Origin: CAVYHJ01 sp963768165 [NCBI: uncultured bacterium]
GTDB lineage: Bacteria > UBP4 > UBA4092
NCBI GenBank assembly: GCA_963768165.1
Contig: CAVYHJ010000026.1
Coordinates: 62,001-126,000 of the forward strand
Reading direction: 5' to 3'
DNA length: 64,000 nt
How positions within the stretch are numbered: the first letter of the stretch is position 1; each line of letters opens with the position of its first letter. The notes beneath the pieces were generated by a model. That model ran no database searches. It saw only the letters and a list, made by a program, of their open reading frames with translations, and was not told where the DNA came from. Shown in pieces: positions 48,491 to 58,096 of the stretch. The position numbers were made by a program, and so were the translations under genes.

Positions 48491-49207
48491 TTAATTGGCA
48501 TTGGCGTGCGCGCCTTTTTGCAATTGTTTGCGAATATCCATATAGATATCAAAATAATGCCAGGCAGGAGGCGCATCCGCAGGTTGGTGATGGTCGGGGA
48601 GAAGAATTAGATTCCCAGTGGACAGGAGAACTTTCTTTACTTCCGGATTCTGATTTATTTTTGCCCAACTGGCGCGAACAATGAGCTTATAGTGGTCACC
48701 TTTTTCATTTGTTTGGTATTCCATTTTTTCCCCTTGATAGGTGACCCAGTTAATATTCATTATTTTCATATTCTCTTTTGCCAAAGCACCTGCGGCATTG
48801 GCTTGAAATGAGGTCATCTGAGAAACCTGTTCGCGCGTGTATTTCCAGATAATACCGGGAAATTTGGCGCGTGGGTCACCCGGCCCTTCGGGATATAACA
48901 TCATTTGCCAAAAACCTTCCAGACTGGTATAGCGTTTCCCATCCAAGGTAAAAGGTGTAGCGGCAAAATTGGATAATAATCCCAGTTCATTTCTTTTTGA
49001 CAAAATCACTTCGCCGGGTCTTGCTTCTTGAGGAAGCACTTCCCACCAGGCGGCTTGCTCTTTCGGTACGGGTGTCCACCAATGTGAGGGATAAAGGAAT
49101 TTCTTTGTTATTTCAATATTTTTTTGGGAGGTTGAACAACTGATGCAAAGAATAACAAATAATAATATAATCCCAATGCTTGGTTTTTTTCTTTTGAAAG
49201 AATCCAT
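48491..49207 (-). CDS. NADAR-domain (YbiA-like) protein with lipoprotein signal
   Basis: 238 aa from ATG 49207. KPSIGIILLFVILCISC-S is a lipoprotein signal peptide. The rest has NADAR features: LGLLSNFAATPFTLDGKRYT, SLEGFWQMMLYPE, a middle MTSFQANAAGALAKENMKI and VLLSTGNLILLP. NADAR proteins act on ADP-ribose or riboflavin-type N-glycosides in the cytosol, so an exported, membrane-tethered version is unusual. It lies 60 bp downstream of the GHMP kinase on the same strand. Confidence 0.75.
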   Translation of the reverse strand: MDSFKRKKPSIGIILLFVILCISCSTSQKNIEITKKFLYPSHWWTPVPKEQAAWWEVLPQEARPGEVILSKRNELGLLSNFAATPFTLDGKRYTSLEGFWQMMLYPEGPGDPRAKFPGIIWKYTREQVSQMTSFQANAAGALAKENMKIMNINWVTYQGEKMEYQTNEKGDHYKLIVRASWAKINQNPEVKKVLLSTGNLILLPDHHQPADAPPAWHYFDIYMDIRKQLQKGAHANAN

Positions 49208-49269
49208 AAGTATAATTAGATTCCATCTATTAGACGATAATACATTTATCAATCATCAAAATCCGGGTT

Positions 49270-50262
49270 CTAAATTACCGGTTGAAAAGCCCGATAACCG
49301 TAACCGCGTAACGCTTCCAAAACGTGGTTCATTTTCTGCAGGTCACAAGTGCCGACGATCGTACCCCCTGAGCCAGCGAATTTAGCATAAGCACCTGCCT
49401 GTCGTGCCCGTTCCACCATAATTGCATGGTGGGGATTGAGTTTGACCAAACTTGAGCGGATATCGTAATTTTCATTCATCAAAGGACCGATTTCATTTCC
49501 CCGTCCTGATTTTAACAAATCGCGAGTCTTGCGTGCCAATGCCGTTTGCTGTTGAATTCCATTAAGCACTGCCGGGTCTCGTGCCAAAAACCGTTCGCGC
49601 AGATTGGAATGAAATACTTCGGTCCCTTCACTGGAAGTCTCATTAATCGCCACAAAAAGCGGTGGAAGAGATTTTGGATCAAGTCGTTCAACTTCCAATC
49701 GACCGTTTTCTTTGACTTCATAAAAGGTCAGGCCTTCGAAAACTTCCGAAACACGGTCAATAGGTCCTGCAGGAATTTTTAAGTTATCAGTTTCTGTACG
49801 AAGTACTATATCCACTTGATCCAGCAAGGGGATTTGAAGATTCGCATGTTCCATCAGAACTCGTAGAGTCGAAGTCAGTAGAGCGGTGGATCCGCCCAAT
49901 CCTACTCGTGTCGGAATAATCGTTTTCCAGGAAAGTGTAAAGTTCTCGATATCTATTTTTTCTCCCCGATCTCTATAATAGTGAACCAGTCGGTGAATTA
50001 GAGCCAAAATCAGTCTACGTGCTCCATAATATCCAATGGTATGAATCGTATGAAGAAGTGCATCGAGATTTTTCCAATCGGGTTGTTCTTCCACAGGTTC
50101 AATGAAACGAATCTTTTTGGAAGGTTCAAGAGTAGCTTCCGCCCAAAGGTCTTGTATGGTTACGGCCAATGCCGACCCTCCCAAGGCGTCCGTGGGATTT
50201 CCCATTAATCCCAAACGGGCATAGGCTTTTCGAGTAATATGTTTATCTTTAAAGTTTTTCAC
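49270..50262 (-). CDS. GHMP-family sugar kinase (glucuronokinase/heptokinase-like)
   Basis: 330 aa. ARLGLMGNPTDALGG opens the family, PTRVGLGGSTALLTSTLR is the ATP-binding PxxxGLGSS-type motif, IPAGPIDRVSEVFEG is a specificity loop and AKFAGSGGTIVGTC is motif 3. Phosphorylates a sugar or sugar acid; glucuronokinase-like proteins keep the GNPTD opening. Probably feeds nucleotide-sugar synthesis for the nearby glycosyltransferases. Confidence 0.82.
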   Translation of the reverse strand: MKNFKDKHITRKAYARLGLMGNPTDALGGSALAVTIQDLWAEATLEPSKKIRFIEPVEEQPDWKNLDALLHTIHTIGYYGARRLILALIHRLVHYYRDRGEKIDIENFTLSWKTIIPTRVGLGGSTALLTSTLRVLMEHANLQIPLLDQVDIVLRTETDNLKIPAGPIDRVSEVFEGLTFYEVKENGRLEVERLDPKSLPPLFVAINETSSEGTEVFHSNLRERFLARDPAVLNGIQQQTALARKTRDLLKSGRGNEIGPLMNENYDIRSSLVKLNPHHAIMVERARQAGAYAKFAGSGGTIVGTCDLQKMNHVLEALRGYGYRAFQPVI

Positions 50263-51843: not shown

Positions 51844-51907
51844 TCAAATCACGGTTGAGTGTTGAGATAAAAGATTATATACTAAAAATTAAAAATGAGT
51901 GACAAAT

Positions 51908-52396
51908 ATGTCGGAAGAGTTGCCAGATAAAAAATTGGCGAACTGTTATCGCCATGCGGAAGTGGAAGCCGTGGGTGCGTGTCTTGCCTGCGGAAAACCG
52001 CTTTGTAAAAACTGCGGTGAGTGGTTTAAAGGAAGATTTTATTGTGTTTCTTGTTACGCTACGGTTGAAATTATGCACGCTCAAGCGGAATCGCCCCAAT
52101 TACAAAATCTCCAATGGCATCAGCAACCAGGGAATATAATTGCATTACTTTTTGTATCGTTCTGTTTGATACTTCCCGGATTTTACCTGCTGTATAAACA
52201 CAAGATTATTTATGGGGTTGTTCTGCTCGCTTTGGGATGGATTATTCAAGGGATTGCCGTTCTTTTGATTCGTAATAGTCAGGCATTGACACGAGAAGTT
52301 AAACGGTTTTTTATTGCTTTTCTCTACATTTCCTTGGTTGCGGTAGTACTTGTCACAGTCTTTTTTTATTGTATAAGACGATTAGGTTTTATTTGA
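51908..52396 (+). CDS. B-box-type zinc finger membrane protein
   Basis: 162 aa from ATG 51908. CYRHAEVEAVGACLACGKPL then CKNCGEWFKGRFYCVSCY forms a zinc-binding B-box-like N-terminus; two hydrophobic helices (IIALLFVSFCLILPGFYLLY and VLLALGWIIQGIAVLLI) and a third at the C-terminus follow. Proteins with this layout are common in environmental bacteria and uncharacterised. Confidence 0.8.
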   Translation: MSEELPDKKLANCYRHAEVEAVGACLACGKPLCKNCGEWFKGRFYCVSCYATVEIMHAQAESPQLQNLQWHQQPGNIIALLFVSFCLILPGFYLLYKHKIIYGVVLLALGWIIQGIAVLLIRNSQALTREVKRFFIAFLYISLVAVVLVTVFFYCIRRLGFI

Positions 52397-52521: not shown

Positions 52522-53616
52522 TCACAAAAAGTTCCTGTGGGATGGTGGATTGTAGATGAACCAGGGTTTTCCGATAATTTTATTGCGGGGAATAACAGAA
52601 GATTTTTGCCAATTTTCCTCATCCCGAATGGAAGCATTGTGATGGGAAGCCTCGCCTAATATACCGAAAAATTTGTCATGGAGTGTATCTCCAGGTTGGG
52701 GAACGACAGATTGCAGGATGAAATAACTGTCGGAAGGCAATTTAATTTTTAGAAATCCGGGCATGGATGTTGTAACCAGTGGATAATTTTTTTGGGGGAG
52801 CGGATTTCCATTGATAGAAATATTCCCGTCATGGAATTCCACAGTTTCTCCGGGGAGCCCGATAATGCGTTCTATAAAATTATCCTGTCCAATGATAAAT
52901 AGATTTCCTTGACTGTCTTCTGCTGAAAAAGAATGCGGTTGATAAAAGACAATATCCCCGCGTTGGGGTGTATGGAACCAATAAGTACAACGGTTGACAC
53001 AAATCCTGTCGCCATTTTCGAAATAAGGGCTCAACGAATCGTTGTTAATATTGATTAGTTGAAACAGACCGTGAGAATACCATTGTAACATCAGGAGCGT
53101 GAATCCCATTAGGAAAAGTCCGTAAAAAAACAAACTAAAGTATTGGCGTTTGCTGACGGAACTGCGTTGGTTTTTGATGACAGCGGTGGAAAACGCGTCC
53201 ATAAATGCAATGATGATTACTCCGCAGGTAGCATACATAAACCAGTTGGAGATATCCTGTTTGATGAAAGCGATAAATAACGTGACTAAGGTAATAAAGG
53301 AAATGAGAAAAGGGATCGCCTTAAAAATTTGACCATTGTAGATTTGACCCATGCCGGGGATAACAGAAAACCAAGCCGCCAGCCATGGCCGTTTCAGGAA
53401 TTGATACTGATGGTTAAGGAACTGAATGGAACGTACCAGAGTGTCTCTGATGAGTTGAAAACGCAGAGTCGTATTTTTAATGGCGTGAAACTGTGCGTGG
53501 TCTTCATCAAGATGGGTATCAATTTTTAAATCTTCCAATGCAATCAAGGGAGATTTGCAATGGAAACAAACTTTGTTTGATTCGGGATTATGGATTCCAC
53601 ATTTACGACAAAGCAT
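52522..53616 (-). CDS. Zinc-ribbon membrane protein with signal-peptidase-I-like domain lacking the catalytic lysine
   Basis: 364 aa. N-terminal double CxxC ribbon (MLCRKCGIHNPESNKVCFHC), then hydrophobic helices (~85-185) with GMGQIYNGQIFKAIPFLIS, then an S26-like domain. INNDSLSPYFENGDRICVN keeps the nucleophile Ser, and RGDIVFYQP and IIGLPGETVEF keep the fold, but the residue before RIIGLPG is Glu (FIERIIGLPG) where signal peptidases have Lys, and the GDN-x-x-x-S-x-DSR box is replaced. Likely a pseudo-enzyme or altered protease. It is last in the Ycf46 operon (27-bp gap). Confidence 0.78.
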   Translation of the reverse strand: MLCRKCGIHNPESNKVCFHCKSPLIALEDLKIDTHLDEDHAQFHAIKNTTLRFQLIRDTLVRSIQFLNHQYQFLKRPWLAAWFSVIPGMGQIYNGQIFKAIPFLISFITLVTLFIAFIKQDISNWFMYATCGVIIIAFMDAFSTAVIKNQRSSVSKRQYFSLFFYGLFLMGFTLLMLQWYSHGLFQLININNDSLSPYFENGDRICVNRCTYWFHTPQRGDIVFYQPHSFSAEDSQGNLFIIGQDNFIERIIGLPGETVEFHDGNISINGNPLPQKNYPLVTTSMPGFLKIKLPSDSYFILQSVVPQPGDTLHDKFFGILGEASHHNASIRDEENWQKSSVIPRNKIIGKPWFIYNPPSHRNFL

Positions 53617-53643
53617 CGGGCAAGAAGTAAAGAATAATATGTT

Positions 53644-53886
53644 TTAATGTTTCTTTTTTTGGTTAAGTTTTGTATGGTCAGGAGAGACAATGCCGACTTT
53701 TGGATCGGGATCATAGCGGTTGGCGCGTAGTTTCACTTCATCCTCTTTTAATTTACCGATCATCTGAGTCAGGAGTTCGACATATTCAACGACATGAGCA
53801 CCGGCAATATCTTTGAAGGTAACCTTCACTTCACCGGTGGATGTAATTTCAATATTGAATTCTTCTTTGGGCATAAAAAATCTCAA
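53644..53886 (-). CDS. DUF2997-family small protein
   Basis: 80 aa. KEEFNIEITSTGEVKVTFKD then AGAHVVEYVELLTQMIGKL and NRYDPDPKVGI match DUF2997, a tiny protein that accompanies Ycf46/DUF1257 genes in cyanobacteria and other bacteria. The usual central Cys is Val here. ATG 53886 overlaps the TPR gene stop as ATGA with GGAG 5 bases upstream. Function unknown. Confidence 0.75.
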   Translation of the reverse strand: MRFFMPKEEFNIEITSTGEVKVTFKDIAGAHVVEYVELLTQMIGKLKEDEVKLRANRYDPDPKVGIVSPDHTKLNQKKKH

Positions 53887-54677
53887 CTCCGAAATGGACT
53901 AACCACCCAATAGAACAAACGATAAATCCATTTGGTACGTTTTGCTTTGGTCAATGCCTTGTCTGCGGGCTTGTATCGCGGATCAATTTCGAGTGCCTGT
54001 TGAAAACATTTAATCGCTCGTGGGAAGAACCCTAAATTCTGGCAGCATAATCCCAATTGGAGCCAGAGAAATGGATTGGAACTATTGAGTGCTGTTGCTT
54101 CGGAAAAATAATGCTGAGCGCGGGAATATTGTTTTCTTTCCATATACGCCCAGCCAACTAATTGAAAAATAAACCAATCATCTTTACTCATCTCGATGGC
54201 TTTGTTAAAACAAAACTCGGAATTTTTTCCATGTTTGGATAGAAAAACCTGACCGCGCGCCAACCAGACGTACGCCGTGGGTGATTTTTGTTCCATGGAT
54301 AAATCCGATATCGCGACAGATTGTTTTACCTGTCCGAGTTTACAATAGACCACCGCCTTGGCAGCGAGCAATTCGGTTTCACTGGGAAATATTTCCAAGG
54401 CTTTATTGACCCAGACATGAGCTTCCCTGTATTCTCTCAAATCAATCAACGCTCGTATCTGGCCGACCCAGGCAGGGACGAGAGTATTATCAATTCCCAG
54501 TGCGCGGGAATAATAGCGCAGGGCTTTTTCAAAATCTCCCTTGCGATAGAACTCGTTGGCCTGCTGGAGATAATAATCCTGATCATATCCCTCCTCAATA
54601 GGCGTAGTCTTCTCAAGCAATTCTTTGGAGTTTTGCTTGTTTTTATCATCTAGTTCAAGTTTTGAAAACCGTCCCAT
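53883..54677 (-). CDS. TPR-repeat protein of the Ycf46 operon
   Basis: 264 aa, no signal peptide. About six 34-residue TPR units from residue ~33: YYLQQANEFYRKGDFEKALR, VWVNKALEIFP, FQLVGWAYMERKQYSRAQHY and LGLCCQNLGFFPRAIKCFQQ are clear. The last ~25 residues are basic and aromatic (TKWIYRLFYWVVSPFRS), perhaps membrane-touching. Sits between the DUF1257-like and DUF2997 genes with 7-bp and -4-bp spacing, so it is probably a scaffold for that system. Confidence 0.88.
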   Translation of the reverse strand: MGRFSKLELDDKNKQNSKELLEKTTPIEEGYDQDYYLQQANEFYRKGDFEKALRYYSRALGIDNTLVPAWVGQIRALIDLREYREAHVWVNKALEIFPSETELLAAKAVVYCKLGQVKQSVAISDLSMEQKSPTAYVWLARGQVFLSKHGKNSEFCFNKAIEMSKDDWFIFQLVGWAYMERKQYSRAQHYFSEATALNSSNPFLWLQLGLCCQNLGFFPRAIKCFQQALEIDPRYKPADKALTKAKRTKWIYRLFYWVVSPFRS

Positions 54678-54684
54678 AGATTAT

Positions 54685-55152
54685 TTACCGCCATCTTCGG
54701 ATTTGTAAATGAATAGAATCTTTTTCATCGGTATGTTCATTGACAACCGAAAATCCTTTTTCAGGGAGTTCTTTAGTGATTTTATTATAGACATATTGTT
54801 TTATAATTTCCTGAGCAAATTGATTTCCAATTTCACGGAGTTGTATTTGAGTTCTCGGTCCCCAAACTTTGATTTTACATTTCCCGCGGATATCTACTTG
54901 AATTCCCAAGGTAATATCTTCTTTTGTGAACAATACTTCGGTTTCGGAGTCTAAGGATTGCGAAATGACGCCCGTATTGGGGAGTACTAATTCAACTGTA
55001 TTGGTTTTATTTTGGACTGCTACACGATTAAAATTTTCTTTAGGAAAGGCGCCATACCCCAGAACCCCTGCGACCGTTGAGAAAAGGGGTACTAATGCCG
55101 GCCACGAGCTTGCGATTGCGGGAAGTAAAATAAATATGCCGCCAAGAGCCAT
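54685..55152 (-). CDS. DUF1257 (Ycf35)-like protein with an N-terminal membrane segment
   Basis: 155 aa. The C-terminal half (IGNQFAQEIIKQYVYNKITK, then GFSVVNEHTDEKDSIHLQIR) follows the DUF1257/Ycf35 pattern, in which a tyrosine helix is followed by GF-x-V-x-E-E and a final R-R-W. The N-terminus is different from the family: GIFILLPAIASSWPALVPLF is hydrophobic and could anchor it in the membrane. It lies 11 bp after the Ycf46 gene, its usual partner. Function unknown. Confidence 0.65.
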   Translation of the reverse strand: MALGGIFILLPAIASSWPALVPLFSTVAGVLGYGAFPKENFNRVAVQNKTNTVELVLPNTGVISQSLDSETEVLFTKEDITLGIQVDIRGKCKIKVWGPRTQIQLREIGNQFAQEIIKQYVYNKITKELPEKGFSVVNEHTDEKDSIHLQIRRWR

Positions 55153-55163
55153 AAAAATAATCC

Positions 55164-56720
55164 TTATTTCAATTCAATATGTCGTTTGGATTCTCCCAAT
55201 TGTAGTTCAATATTAAGTGTAGCACGCCGTGCACGCCCTTCCGCCCAATGCCGCAATCCGTCAATTTCTTCTTTCATGGTTCGGGAAAGAGGCGAGGTTT
55301 GTTTGATACTATTCAAAAGCATTTCCGTTGCCAAAGGTTTTTTAGCTTCAAAGGCATCGTAGAGTCCGCTGATGACGACCTGTTCTAATTCCGCTCCAGA
55401 GAATCCTTCGGATTCTTTGGAAAGAATATCCAAATCGAATTCTTCGGGAAGGTGGTTACGTTTGGCTAAATGAATTTTCAAGATGTCAACGCGTTCATTA
55501 AAATTAGGCAAGTCCACAAAGAAAATTTCATCAAATCGTCCTTTACGCAAAAGTTCCGGCGGGAGTTGGGTAATATTATTGGCGGTGGCAATGACGAAAA
55601 CTGGTGCGGTTTTTTCCTGCAGCCAGGTAGTGAAACTGCCAAGTACCCGAGACGTCGTTCCCGCGTCTGAAAAGGAAGAACTTTGAACACCGGAGAACGC
55701 CTTATCAATTTCATCTATCCAGAGAATTGTAGGGGAAACAGATTCGGCAATTTTAATGGCACGCCGGACGTTATCTTCCGACGACCCGACGAGACTGCTG
55801 AATAATCGTCCCATGTCCAATCGCAAAAGTGGTACGCGCCATAATTGAGAAACCGCTTTGGCGCAGAGACTTTTCCCACAGCCTTGCACTCCGATAAATA
55901 AAACCCCTTTGGGTGCGGGTAATCCGAAAGCACGGGCTTGCTCGGAAAACGCCAGATTACGTTTGCGTAACCATTCTTTGACTTCCGTCAATCCGCCGAC
56001 ATCTTCGAATTGTTCTGTCGCGGCGTAATATTCCAATAACCCGGATTTGCGGATAATTTGTTGTTTTTCGGAAAAGATTATAGGTATATTGTCAGCGTCA
56101 AGTTTCCCGCTCAACACCAAACTTTTGGCAAAAACATTTTCAGCTTCTTTCAAAGTCAATCCCAGCGCTGCATGTAAAATTTGTTCTCGCATCTGTGGAT
56201 CGTCTTTGATTCTGATATCGGGGCTTCCTTTCACATCTTGGATGACATGGTTGAGTAATTCGTTCAAATCGTCCATGGTCGGCAAATCGAAATCCATCAC
56301 CGTAATATCTTTTTCTAATTCCGCCGGCAATCGTAGTATGGGAGCCACAAGGACAAGAGTTTTATAACTGTTTCTCAGGTAATTGGACACTTCGCGCAAT
56401 TTTCTCCGCACGCTCGGTTCGTCAATGTAGGCGTGAAAATCTTTGAAAAGAAAAATAGCGGGTTCCAGCAATTCGATGACATTTTCCAGAGCCAACAGCG
56501 GATCTTTGGACGGTGCATTTTTATATTTTTGCGATTGGGCGGATGCGCCATAGGGAAGCAATCCTTGATTGATGGTCCAGGTATAAATTTTTTTATCCCG
56601 TTGTTTGGCAATATCCAGCAGGACTTTTTCAACGCGGTCTTCTTCCCATGTTACCGTATAGAGAATAGGATACCGCGCCCGGATTAGAACCTCGATTTCT
56701 TTAATTTGCTCTTTTGACAT
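55164..56720 (-). CDS. Ycf46-type AAA+ ATPase
   Basis: 518 aa from ATG 56720 (the frame opens 7 codons earlier at 56741). N-terminal domain (~1-220) begins [20 protein letters not shown], a Ycf46 hallmark, with [12 protein letters not shown]. The AAA core has Walker [18 protein letters not shown], Walker [12 protein letters not shown], sensor 1 ATANNI and the arginine region [16 protein letters not shown]. Ycf46 is conserved in cyanobacteria and plastids and linked to photosynthesis regulation there, but its biochemical role is unknown. First gene of a five-gene minus-strand operon. Confidence 0.9.
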
Positions 56721-56741
56721 AGTGTTTACTGATTTTACCAT

Positions 56742-56770
56742 AGCCTATCCATCACTTTCATAATTGTCAA
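56742..56770 (-). promoter_or_regulatory. Possible promoter of the Ycf46 operon
   Basis: On the minus strand TTGACA (56770-56765), 17-bp spacer, TAGGCT (56747-56742). It places the transcript start near 56735, which favours the ATG at 56720. Confidence 0.5.
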
Positions 56771-56995: not shown

Positions 56996-58096
56996 ATGCG
57001 TATTCAACGATTGGAATTGCACAATTTTCGTAATTATCGAGACCTAGTGTTGTCTTTGGAAAAGCAAATGATTGTTTTTCTGGGGAATAACGCCCAAGGG
57101 AAAACCAATTTGCTGGAATCCATTTATATGGCAGCGATGGGCAAATCCCATCACACTAATCAGGACTCGGATTTGATTCAATGGAATGAGCCTGCGGGAA
57201 TTATCCGGCTGGACTTTGAGTCCCGGCAAATGGCGCATCAAATTGAGATTTCGGTTACCCCCTCCGAGAAACGCATTAAAAAAGACGGGAAGATGATTTC
57301 CAAAAGGTCGGAGTTATTCGGCCACCTGGCGATGGTTCTTTTTACACCGGATGATTTATCGTTGATTAAAGGGGAACCGTCTCTCCGGCGCAGATTTTTG
57401 GATTTGGAAATTTCGCAGACCCGTCCTGTCTACCTGCACGCTCTCCAGAGATATTATCGCGCGTTAAAACAAAGAAATATTTCCATCCGCAATGTGTTGG
57501 CGAAAAAAGCGGGGTTGGATTTGATTCATGCATGGGACGACCAATTAGTTGAATTTGGCTCTCAGATTATGGTGGAAAGAGACAAGACTGTCGTTCGGCT
57601 CAATGAATTACTCGCGGAAATTTATCCGAAAATTACCGGCAATTCTGATACTCTTCAATTAACATATCAGGTATCATTTCCGTTTCAAGCGACAGATTCC
57701 CTACCATTATTATTTTCAAAGAAATTGGTGGAATCGCAAAAAGAAGAACTGGCGCGGGGAATTACTTTGATCGGTCCACAAAGGGATGATATTAAAATCC
57801 TTCTGAATGAGCATGAACTAAAATCCTTTGGTTCTCAGGGGGAACAACGCACGGTAGTCCTCGCACTCAAATTGGCGGAAATTGAATTCATTACCAAAGA
57901 ACTGGGCGAACCGCCCATCGTCGCCCTCGATGATTTCATGTCGGAATTGGACGACCACCACATCACCTGTCTCTTGAATTCCCTAACCCCTGACACACAA
58001 ACTTTCATCACCGGGATTCATAAATTACCCGTTCAGTTTCAAACGCAAAATATTCAGTATTACCAAATTAAAAATGGAGAAGTTAATAAAGTTTAA
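56996..58096 (+). CDS. recF: DNA replication and repair protein RecF
   Basis: 366 aa SMC-like ATPase loading RecA at gaps. MRIQRLELHNFRNYRDLVL, Walker A FLGNNAQGKTNLLESIY, GPQRDDIKILLN, signature SFGSQGEQRTVVLALKLAE and Walker B PIVALDDFMSELD are all in place. It stands apart from dnaA, dnaN and gyrB, which are not in the window, so this is not evidence for the origin. Confidence 0.95.
   Translation: MRIQRLELHNFRNYRDLVLSLEKQMIVFLGNNAQGKTNLLESIYMAAMGKSHHTNQDSDLIQWNEPAGIIRLDFESRQMAHQIEISVTPSEKRIKKDGKMISKRSELFGHLAMVLFTPDDLSLIKGEPSLRRRFLDLEISQTRPVYLHALQRYYRALKQRNISIRNVLAKKAGLDLIHAWDDQLVEFGSQIMVERDKTVVRLNELLAEIYPKITGNSDTLQLTYQVSFPFQATDSLPLLFSKKLVESQKEELARGITLIGPQRDDIKILLNEHELKSFGSQGEQRTVVLALKLAEIEFITKELGEPPIVALDDFMSELDDHHITCLLNSLTPDTQTFITGIHKLPVQFQTQNIQYYQIKNGEVNKV

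Follow-up and report, generated by a model that had tools for sequence, protein, structure and literature searches.

Within a 64,000-nucleotide window of contig CAVYHJ010000026.1 (positions 62,001 to 126,000; assembly GCA_963768165.1), from the uncultured bacterium CAVYHJ01 sp963768165, five minus-strand open reading frames (ORFs) form an operon encoding a Ycf46-type AAA+ ATPase, a DUF1257 (Ycf35)-like protein, a TPR protein, a DUF2997-like protein, and an S26-like membrane protein. Our main new result, absent from the first-pass annotation of this DNA, is a shared terminal peptide, RFxxLE, with the consensus RFxxLE[LFI]. With moderate confidence, we propose that the five genes specify a small bacterial remodelling machine, similar to Cdc48/p97, that recognizes its partners by this terminal peptide (the tag). 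The gene set, its recurrence, the tag, the association of an ATPase tail with DUF1257 and DUF2997, and the loss of a catalytic Lys from the S26-like protein are read directly from the sequences. We infer that the tag functions as a binding peptide, that the ATPase is its reader, and that the clients are membrane proteins.

In the proposed mechanism, the Ycf46-type ATPase would be a ring motor with a dead first and an active second AAA domain. It would recognize dedicated partners by RFxxLE[LFI], a peptide that the TPR protein has at its N-terminus. Where the ATPase occurs with DUF1257 and DUF2997, its own C-terminus bears a similar peptide, which would compete for a common site; because the tail-like peptide is found where these domains are present, the DUF1257–DUF2997 module is most likely what decides between tail and partner at that site. 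In the window, the TPR protein, with its basic C-terminus, and the membrane S26-like pseudo-peptidase may recruit the motor to proteins that are exported or reside in the membrane. A tag linking the ATPase to named partners makes its binder, the effect of changing it, and its other carriers testable, and the shared peptide suggests how a poorly understood remodelling machine may choose its partners. The finding further suggests that peptide-coded, tandem-AAA Cdc48-like machines are widespread in bacteria. As a broader and still tentative proposal, bacteria and some archaea may possess tandem-AAA motors with an RFxxLE[LFI] partner code, a variant tail, regulation by DUF1257–DUF2997, and other codes in paralogues.

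The window TPR protein begins MGRFSKLELDD. The ATPase was scanned against an 84,980-species genome collection, and the best 80 loci (47–60% identity to the window ATPase) were analysed. Across 81 loci, RF..[LI]E occurred anywhere in ORFs at 49 places, 38 of them on the ATPase's strand. Among called genes of these discovery loci, a near-terminal tag was present in 15 of 247 in the operon zone versus 3 of 701 others (p 4.6e-7). The 15, with homologues counted singly, comprised nine TPR proteins, three zinc-ribbon proteins (two copies each; L013, L018, L022), two SNF2 helicases (L033, L042), and a Treponema protein ending in NDRFSNLEL (L029); the match of the L011 TPR protein is a different, internal one and not its tag. 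Two of the three hits outside the zone (L034, L058) belong to an unnamed tagged family described below, leaving L041 as the only true background. Uncalled ORFs near the ATPase also carried the tag, namely NHL propellers (L019, L020), a protein that is zinc-ribbon-like by eye (L049), and an ORF in L077, such that the tag near the ATPase spans unrelated TPR, SNF2 helicase, NHL propeller, zinc-ribbon, and unnamed-family proteins. In the SNF2-cluster ORFs of L038 and L055, the motif would be terminal only on the assumption that the ORF as drawn begins too far upstream. The S26-like family was dropped from the tagged set because its C-terminal RFGSIE (L009, L012) aligns with the ordinary cyanobacterial signal peptidase C-terminus (NRLGSLD); these matches lie within the 38 same-strand places and outside the 15 terminal called genes.

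A second set, independent of motif discovery, consisted of 60 further planctomycete-phylum loci. Its ten tagged operon-zone ORFs were four TPR proteins, two SNF2 proteins (L180, L181), a 167-aa protein ending in TRFKSLELD (L160), and three unassigned ORFs; as controls, the reversed motif occurred twice in the operon zone and once elsewhere, and the swapped motif zero and two times, respectively. A third set of 40 loci (34 Myxococcota, 6 Chloroflexota), in which [ED] was allowed in the motif, gave three places, all on the ATPase's strand: L218, L224 (zinc-ribbon-like, below cut-off), and L221, whose match looks accidental. The L160 protein founded the unnamed family. A tag-less N-terminal query, whose alignment contained one of the resulting 12 (G520), matched 12 of 140 myxobacterial-phylum genomes, and the tag stood at the end in 12/12 (11 by regex; L263 reads RFSMLDWD). 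An apparent, tag-less fusion of this family with the ATPase in L114 is probably a frameshift and was not used.

Deprived of its first 19 residues, the window TPR protein matched 41 places in 28 of 246 planctomycete-phylum genomes. Among the 30 loci given, the N-terminal tag was present in 8/8 orthologues (E 5e-34 or better) and in 0/22 weaker TPR proteins; six of the eight had turned up before, in L006, L017, or among the 60 loci, and G091 is closely related to one of these six, which leaves G164 as the only quite new one. In a wider orthologue set, the tag was found in 17/17, with the called ORF showing it in 16/17; the tags of L009 (IARFDKLELPEDED) and L011 (EIDRFKFLELPDE) read in frame just upstream of the called ORF. 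Genome-wide, MxRFxxLE occurred at 10 places in seven genomes versus 7 in reversed controls, and one of the 10 was the operon's tagged TPR gene.

The ATPase's own C-terminal tail reads KRHIELK in the window, RRKIEL in many planctomycetes, and EYQR[LM]EF in cyanobacteria, and some myxobacterial tails are full tags (RFRNLEMGDT, GFRGLELEDA, GFRDLEL). The first residue of these full-tag tails equals that of the unnamed partner's tag in 6/6 genomes (G in G492, G512, and L063; R in G502, G472, and G542), which are of related lineages. A tail was scored when the ATPase end matched the regex [LIM]E[LIFVMYW].{0,5}, and DUF1257 when a hidden Markov model (HMM) matched within 3.5 kb on the same strand. 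The HMM was built from 47 sequences kept after hand removal of alternative-frame ORFs inside the ATPase, which lay in L003, L008, L016, L017, L027, L028, L033, L036, L038, L041, L057, L064, and parts of others. In the planctomycete set, 9/13 ATPases with DUF1257 had the tail versus 0/40 without it (p 1.6e-7; 53 of 60 loci counted, leaving out seven with <1000 bp downstream and no DUF1257: L159, which has a tail, L163, L183, L184, L186, L188, and L192). The corresponding counts in the myxobacterial/Chloroflexota set were 13/15 and 6/24 (p 2.4e-4; 39 of 40 loci, leaving out L253, which has a tail). As DUF2997 was close by in five of the six exceptions, the rule was widened afterwards to DUF1257 or DUF2997 and to E or D. 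With the discovery loci added, the tail was then present in 66/81 ATPases with either domain versus 1/78 without, in a set of 159 non-redundant ATPases (193 loci, 185 with ATPase, 174 usable ends).

ATPase paralogues lacking DUF1257 end in other words: NPFI(P)-like (L190, L193, L194, L239–L241, L243), FFxxW-like (L236, L237, L242, L244, L248), and GR[FY]xR[VL]ARIK-like (L198–L200, L202). These endings are possibly separate partner codes.

The likeness to Cdc48/p97/VCP comes from an AlphaFold2 (AF2) model of the L160 homologue, to which the window ATPase is 52% identical. Residues 218–711 of this model align with p97 residues 210–763 (Z 27.5, 452 residues, rmsd 8.8); for the second half of the model, the match is to p97 D2 (Z 26.6, 267 residues, rmsd 2.7). 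The window ATPase has a Walker A motif, GVQGCGKS, in its second half only; no GxxxxGK[ST] was seen by eye in residues 1–235, and the Pfam AAA match (2e-29) covers residues 280–410 only. From this Walker A placement and the fold match to p97 D1–D2, we predict that the ATPase works as a tandem-AAA motor whose first ring is dead and whose second is active. The CDC48 family model TIGR01243 scored 120.8 bits, below its cut-off of 802.65. p97 itself has peptide-bearing partners and a C-terminal docking tail; the window ATPase differs from it in lacking Walker A in the first AAA domain, in leaving no room for a p97-type N-domain, and in the peptides involved. The AAA domain of Vps4, a related motor, also matches the L160 model (Z 25–26), and the ESCRT-III MIM1 terminal peptides have an R-hydrophobic-x-x-L core. 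Unlike the Vps4/ESCRT system, the proteins scanned here gave no MIT domain or ESCRT-III family among above-cut-off Pfam matches.

Several results weigh against the proposed machine. The excess of the tag in the 60 planctomycete loci was modest (10/586 operon-zone ORFs versus 2/745 elsewhere, p 0.007), and by regex a tail is missing from 15 of the 81 ATPases that have a DUF gene beside them. The tail–DUF counts are inflated by shared ancestry: on a FastTree tree built without the tail, on which the tail and DUF traits each change 14 times, independent pairs went the same way in 3.1 of 8 cases and the opposite way in 0.0 on average for tail and either DUF (median p 0.25), and in 4.9 of 14 and 0.0 for tail and DUF1257 (median p 0.06), meaning that the direction agrees and the support is weak. 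The E/D letter agrees between tag and tail in 15/18 genomes and disagrees in G502, G538, and G563, an agreement within chance, although L171 and L172, where both letters are D, had looked striking; owing to these three disagreements in the 18-genome recount, we no longer rely on this covariation and have lowered our confidence. Six draft genomes (G004, G005, G014, G015, G027, G032) encode an RF-tagged partner near the ATPase and gave no PF06868 or PF11211 match. In an AlphaFold read-through model of tail, DUF1257, and DUF2997 (L216), the tail fell under pLDDT (predicted local distance difference test) 50, and its docking on either domain was not supported.

The DUF absences in the six drafts are not firm because the PF06868 search also missed G017, whose locus L023 has a DUF1257 relative by phmmer. 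At face value, the ATPase is the sole common component, and we therefore placed the tag site on it, with the tail as competitor; DUF1257/DUF2997 may then be dispensable for tag use, and these drafts point to the ATPase itself as the reader. Less probable is that the peptide is read by DUF1257 and/or DUF2997, acting as adaptors that grip the ATPase tail and clients through the same motif, much as PUB/PUL domains hold p97's tail. The near confinement of the tail to loci with these domains, and the usual position of their genes near the ATPase, speak for such adaptors. However, the L216 model left the tail undocked on both domains, even though both were folded (170/288 residues with pLDDT ≥90), and the six drafts had tagged partners with no match to either domain, in a search that has misses. 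Tail docking was judged by pLDDT; in the L160 two-protein model, the block of helix 148–165 had a mean of 85 and the next block 50. The whole DUF1257–DUF2997 model gave no Foldseek hit at E ≤1e-3, its best VIA match was spermine synthase (Z 9.3, 86 residues, rmsd 3.0), and a sequence search of the PDB with DUF1257–DUF2997 gave no clear match.

Several AAA+ unfoldases choose substrates by short, terminal, transferable tags, and RFxxLE could likewise be a degron, with the tagged proteins being substrates unfolded by the ATPase, perhaps for a protease. A Rhomboid-family gene upstream of the ATPase in L005–L007 would fit this scheme. We consider it unlikely, as the tagged proteins are conserved operon partners, and the operon TPR protein was the only tagged partner in the seven-genome scan; moreover, GxSG seems by eye to be missing from the rhomboid-like proteins, although no systematic protease search was made.

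We judge it similarly improbable that RFxxLE reflects coincidence and common descent, that is, one TPR and one unnamed family with conserved ends. Two families do supply most of the tag counts, the S26-like C-terminal matches proved to be ordinary signal peptidase ends, and the weak phylogeny-corrected association and the E/D disagreements described above also favour this explanation. Yet the motif is N-terminal in some families and C-terminal in others, occurs in ATPase tails as well, and is borne by SNF2, NHL, and zinc-ribbon proteins; of the three "background" hits on the opposite strand, L034 and L058 themselves belong to the unnamed tagged family, and in the operon zone the reversed motif occurred 2 times against 10 for the true motif. 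An IetAS-kind defence or stress operon is highly improbable: the ATPase does match PADLOC IetA (6e-24) and NCBIfam IteA_antiphage (71 bits), but the latter score is far under its cut-off of 510 and the match spans the common AAA domain, the nine window proteins scanned include no protease other than the S26-like one, and the flanks are recF-like and fumarase genes.

The S26-like protein matches Peptidase_S26 (1e-18) and the signal peptidase I model TIGR02227 (75 bits, cut-off 47), placing it in the same fold family as signal peptidase I. In an alignment with two cyanobacterial signal peptidases, it keeps the Ser position (NDSL), whereas the Lys of the dyad is Glu; none of nine operon homologues has Lys in this column, and both controls have Ser and Lys. 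Judged by these residues, the protein is a pseudo-peptidase, as the first-pass annotation had proposed in calling it a membrane pseudo-protease. It further differs from signal peptidase I in having extra hydrophobic segments and an N-terminal zinc ribbon (weak match, residues 3–24). Most of the listed TPR C-termini are short and basic with hydrophobic residues, and we read them, including the window stretch KWIYRLFYWVVSPFRS, as possibly membrane-binding. The membrane S26-like partner and the TPR C-terminus suggest that the system may remodel proteins of the membrane or proteins bound for export. PilT-like and rhomboid-like genes in relatives suggest the same, as does the Synechocystis Ycf46 mutant, whose extracellular carbonic anhydrase activity was reportedly reduced (Jiang et al. 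2015, cited in PMC7496141).

At least 589 stretches matched the search pattern, of which at least 582 encode an ATPase relative. The close relatives listed among the best 80 loci include metagenome-assembled genomes (MAGs) named Planctomycetota, Sumerlaeota, Omnitrophota, Chloroflexi, Armatimonadota, Verrucomicrobia, Myxococcales, and Treponema, and two archaea. Family members occur in 73/246 planctomycete-phylum genomes (E 1e-60), 98/140 myxobacterial-phylum genomes, and 10/151 Chloroflexota-phylum genomes (both E 1e-100). The earlier description of the ATPase as known mainly from cyanobacteria and plastids is thus too narrow. All five families cluster in planctomycete loci and also in L011, from a Chloroflexi MAG, a co-occurrence from which we conclude that the five-gene association is not due to chance. 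The first-pass annotation had staked its proposal on the TPR and S26-like genes recurring with Ycf46, and they do, in Planctomycetota and the Chloroflexi MAG.

The usual planctomycete order is radical-SAM, ATPase, DUF1257, DUF2997, zinc-ribbon/S26-like, TPR, and PilT-like ATPase (Pfam in L006: Radical_SAM 1e-9, T2SSE 1e-45, Peptidase_S26 1e-7), and that of L011 is ATPase, DUF1257, TPR, DUF2997, S26-like, and T2SSE. An Ozemobacteraceae MAG (L122), found via its DUF1257, has the window order of ATPase, DUF1257, TPR, and DUF2997, followed by a contig-end fragment resembling the PilT-like gene, which Pfam did not confirm. In the genome of the Sumerlaeota locus L001, DUF1257 adjoins a tagged TPR gene at a separate locus (L123). 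By fumarase, this genome is the nearest of 15 compared (63% identity; 11 of the 15 gave a match), and the window may derive from Sumerlaeota or a neighbouring group. A T2SSE (PilT-like) ATPase lies downstream in L006 (8020–9105) and L011 (12460–13506), with none among the nine window proteins scanned. Rhomboid-family genes stand 5' of the radical-SAM gene and ATPase in L005 (6283–6942), L006 (1725–2408; 43 bits), and L007 (6242–6907; 24 bits; cut-off 22.6); their products end in GFVDID, SRFADLD, and AFVDVD, respectively, with no GxSG serine seen by eye. Should these proteins be derlin-like partners, their pairing with a Cdc48-like motor would be striking. DUF2997 lies near a Fer4_12/Radical_SAM gene in L029, L193, and L197. 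In a Treponema MAG (L029, L118), the ATPase and a DUF1257 gene share loci with phage-type tube or sheath genes, including a T4 gp19-type tube gene in L029.

In cyanobacteria, and to some extent in plastids, Ycf46, Ycf35, and DUF2997 are conserved. Cyanobacterial Ycf46 proteins (among L043–L080) are 47–49% identical to the window ATPase from about residue 14 to 499–511, a similarity that includes the N-terminal half and by which the window ATPase is a Ycf46 family member. Ycf46 (Slr0374) belongs to cyanobacteria and red-algal plastids; in the cyanobacterial loci, DUF1257 likewise lies downstream, and the tail is of the same LE type. No TPR/S26-like cluster was seen beside the cyanobacterial ATPases, however; there, DUF2997 sits with a DUF1257 copy and ferredoxin. 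As described in PMC4284462, DUF1257 also adjoins DUF2997 in the Synechocystis fed7-ycf35-DUF2997 cluster, which has a ferredoxin instead of TPR/S26-like genes and no ATPase. In literature searches that did not extend to most subscription journals, no title or abstract opening on Ycf46, Ycf35 (DUF1257), or DUF2997 mentioned such a peptide or operon, and the papers seen gave no biochemical role for these proteins. In 21 of 30 cyanobacterial loci (L297–L317), the ferredoxin adjoining DUF2997 has an N-terminal EPELGG-type repeat, with two copies in 18/21 and one protein confirmed as Fer4_13; the LE core of this repeat resembles the tag, but the spacing differs.

The ORF coordinates bear out the operon of five minus-strand genes with intergenic gaps of 11, 7, −4, and 27 bp. 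Of the span annotated earlier (52522–56770), the lower bound stands, and the upper one lies slightly past the first gene (56741), whose start codon is likely the ATG at 56720. Pfam scores, together with phmmer for both DUFs, support the four partner assignments made earlier. The window DUF1257-like protein scored 20.8 bits (residues 110–149) and the DUF2997-like protein (PF11211) 17.7 bits, below the respective Pfam cut-offs of 22.2 and 24.1; we upheld both calls because of phmmer similarity to neighbouring genes of relatives. The PF06868 cut-off is exceeded by the DUF1257 homologues that the L006, L007, and L010 genomes encode. A conserved Cys, kept in 99 of 104 non-redundant DUF2997 sequences, is Val in the window protein, and no radical-SAM family was found among the nine window proteins scanned.

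Table 1. Operon features and their positions in the window.
Feature	Position	Strand	Basis or detail
Ycf46-type AAA+ ATPase	55164..56741	-	525 aa (start 56741), 518 aa from ATG 56720
ATPase C-terminal tail KRHIELK, LE-type motif	55167..55187	-	sequence
DUF1257 (Ycf35)-like protein, 155 aa	54685..55152	-	Pfam, phmmer, alignment
TPR protein, 264 aa	53883..54677	-	TPR match 3e-26
N-terminal tag RFSKLEL of TPR protein	54651..54671	-	sequence; kept in TPR orthologues examined
Basic, amphipathic-looking TPR C-terminal stretch KWIYRLFYWVVSPFRS	53886..53945	-	list of TPR C-termini
DUF2997-like protein, 80 aa	53644..53886	-	Pfam, phmmer
S26-like membrane protein with zinc ribbon, 364 aa	52522..53616	-	Pfam, TIGR02227
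CxxC...CxxC zinc ribbon of S26-like protein	53557..53610	-	sequence; weak Pfam matches
Glu replacing catalytic Lys of S26-like protein	52870..52872	-	FIERIIGLPGE vs FIKRIIGLPGE

The operon is flanked on its 5' side by a divergent RecF/SMC_N-type gene (56996–58096) and on its 3' side by a convergent plus-strand gene (51899–52396), whose product has a weak, below-cut-off B-box-like zinc finger and hydrophobic segments. Two adjacent minus-strand genes at 48491–49252 and 49270–50262 encode an NADAR/Phage_30_3-like protein (below cut-offs) and a GHMP-family kinase.

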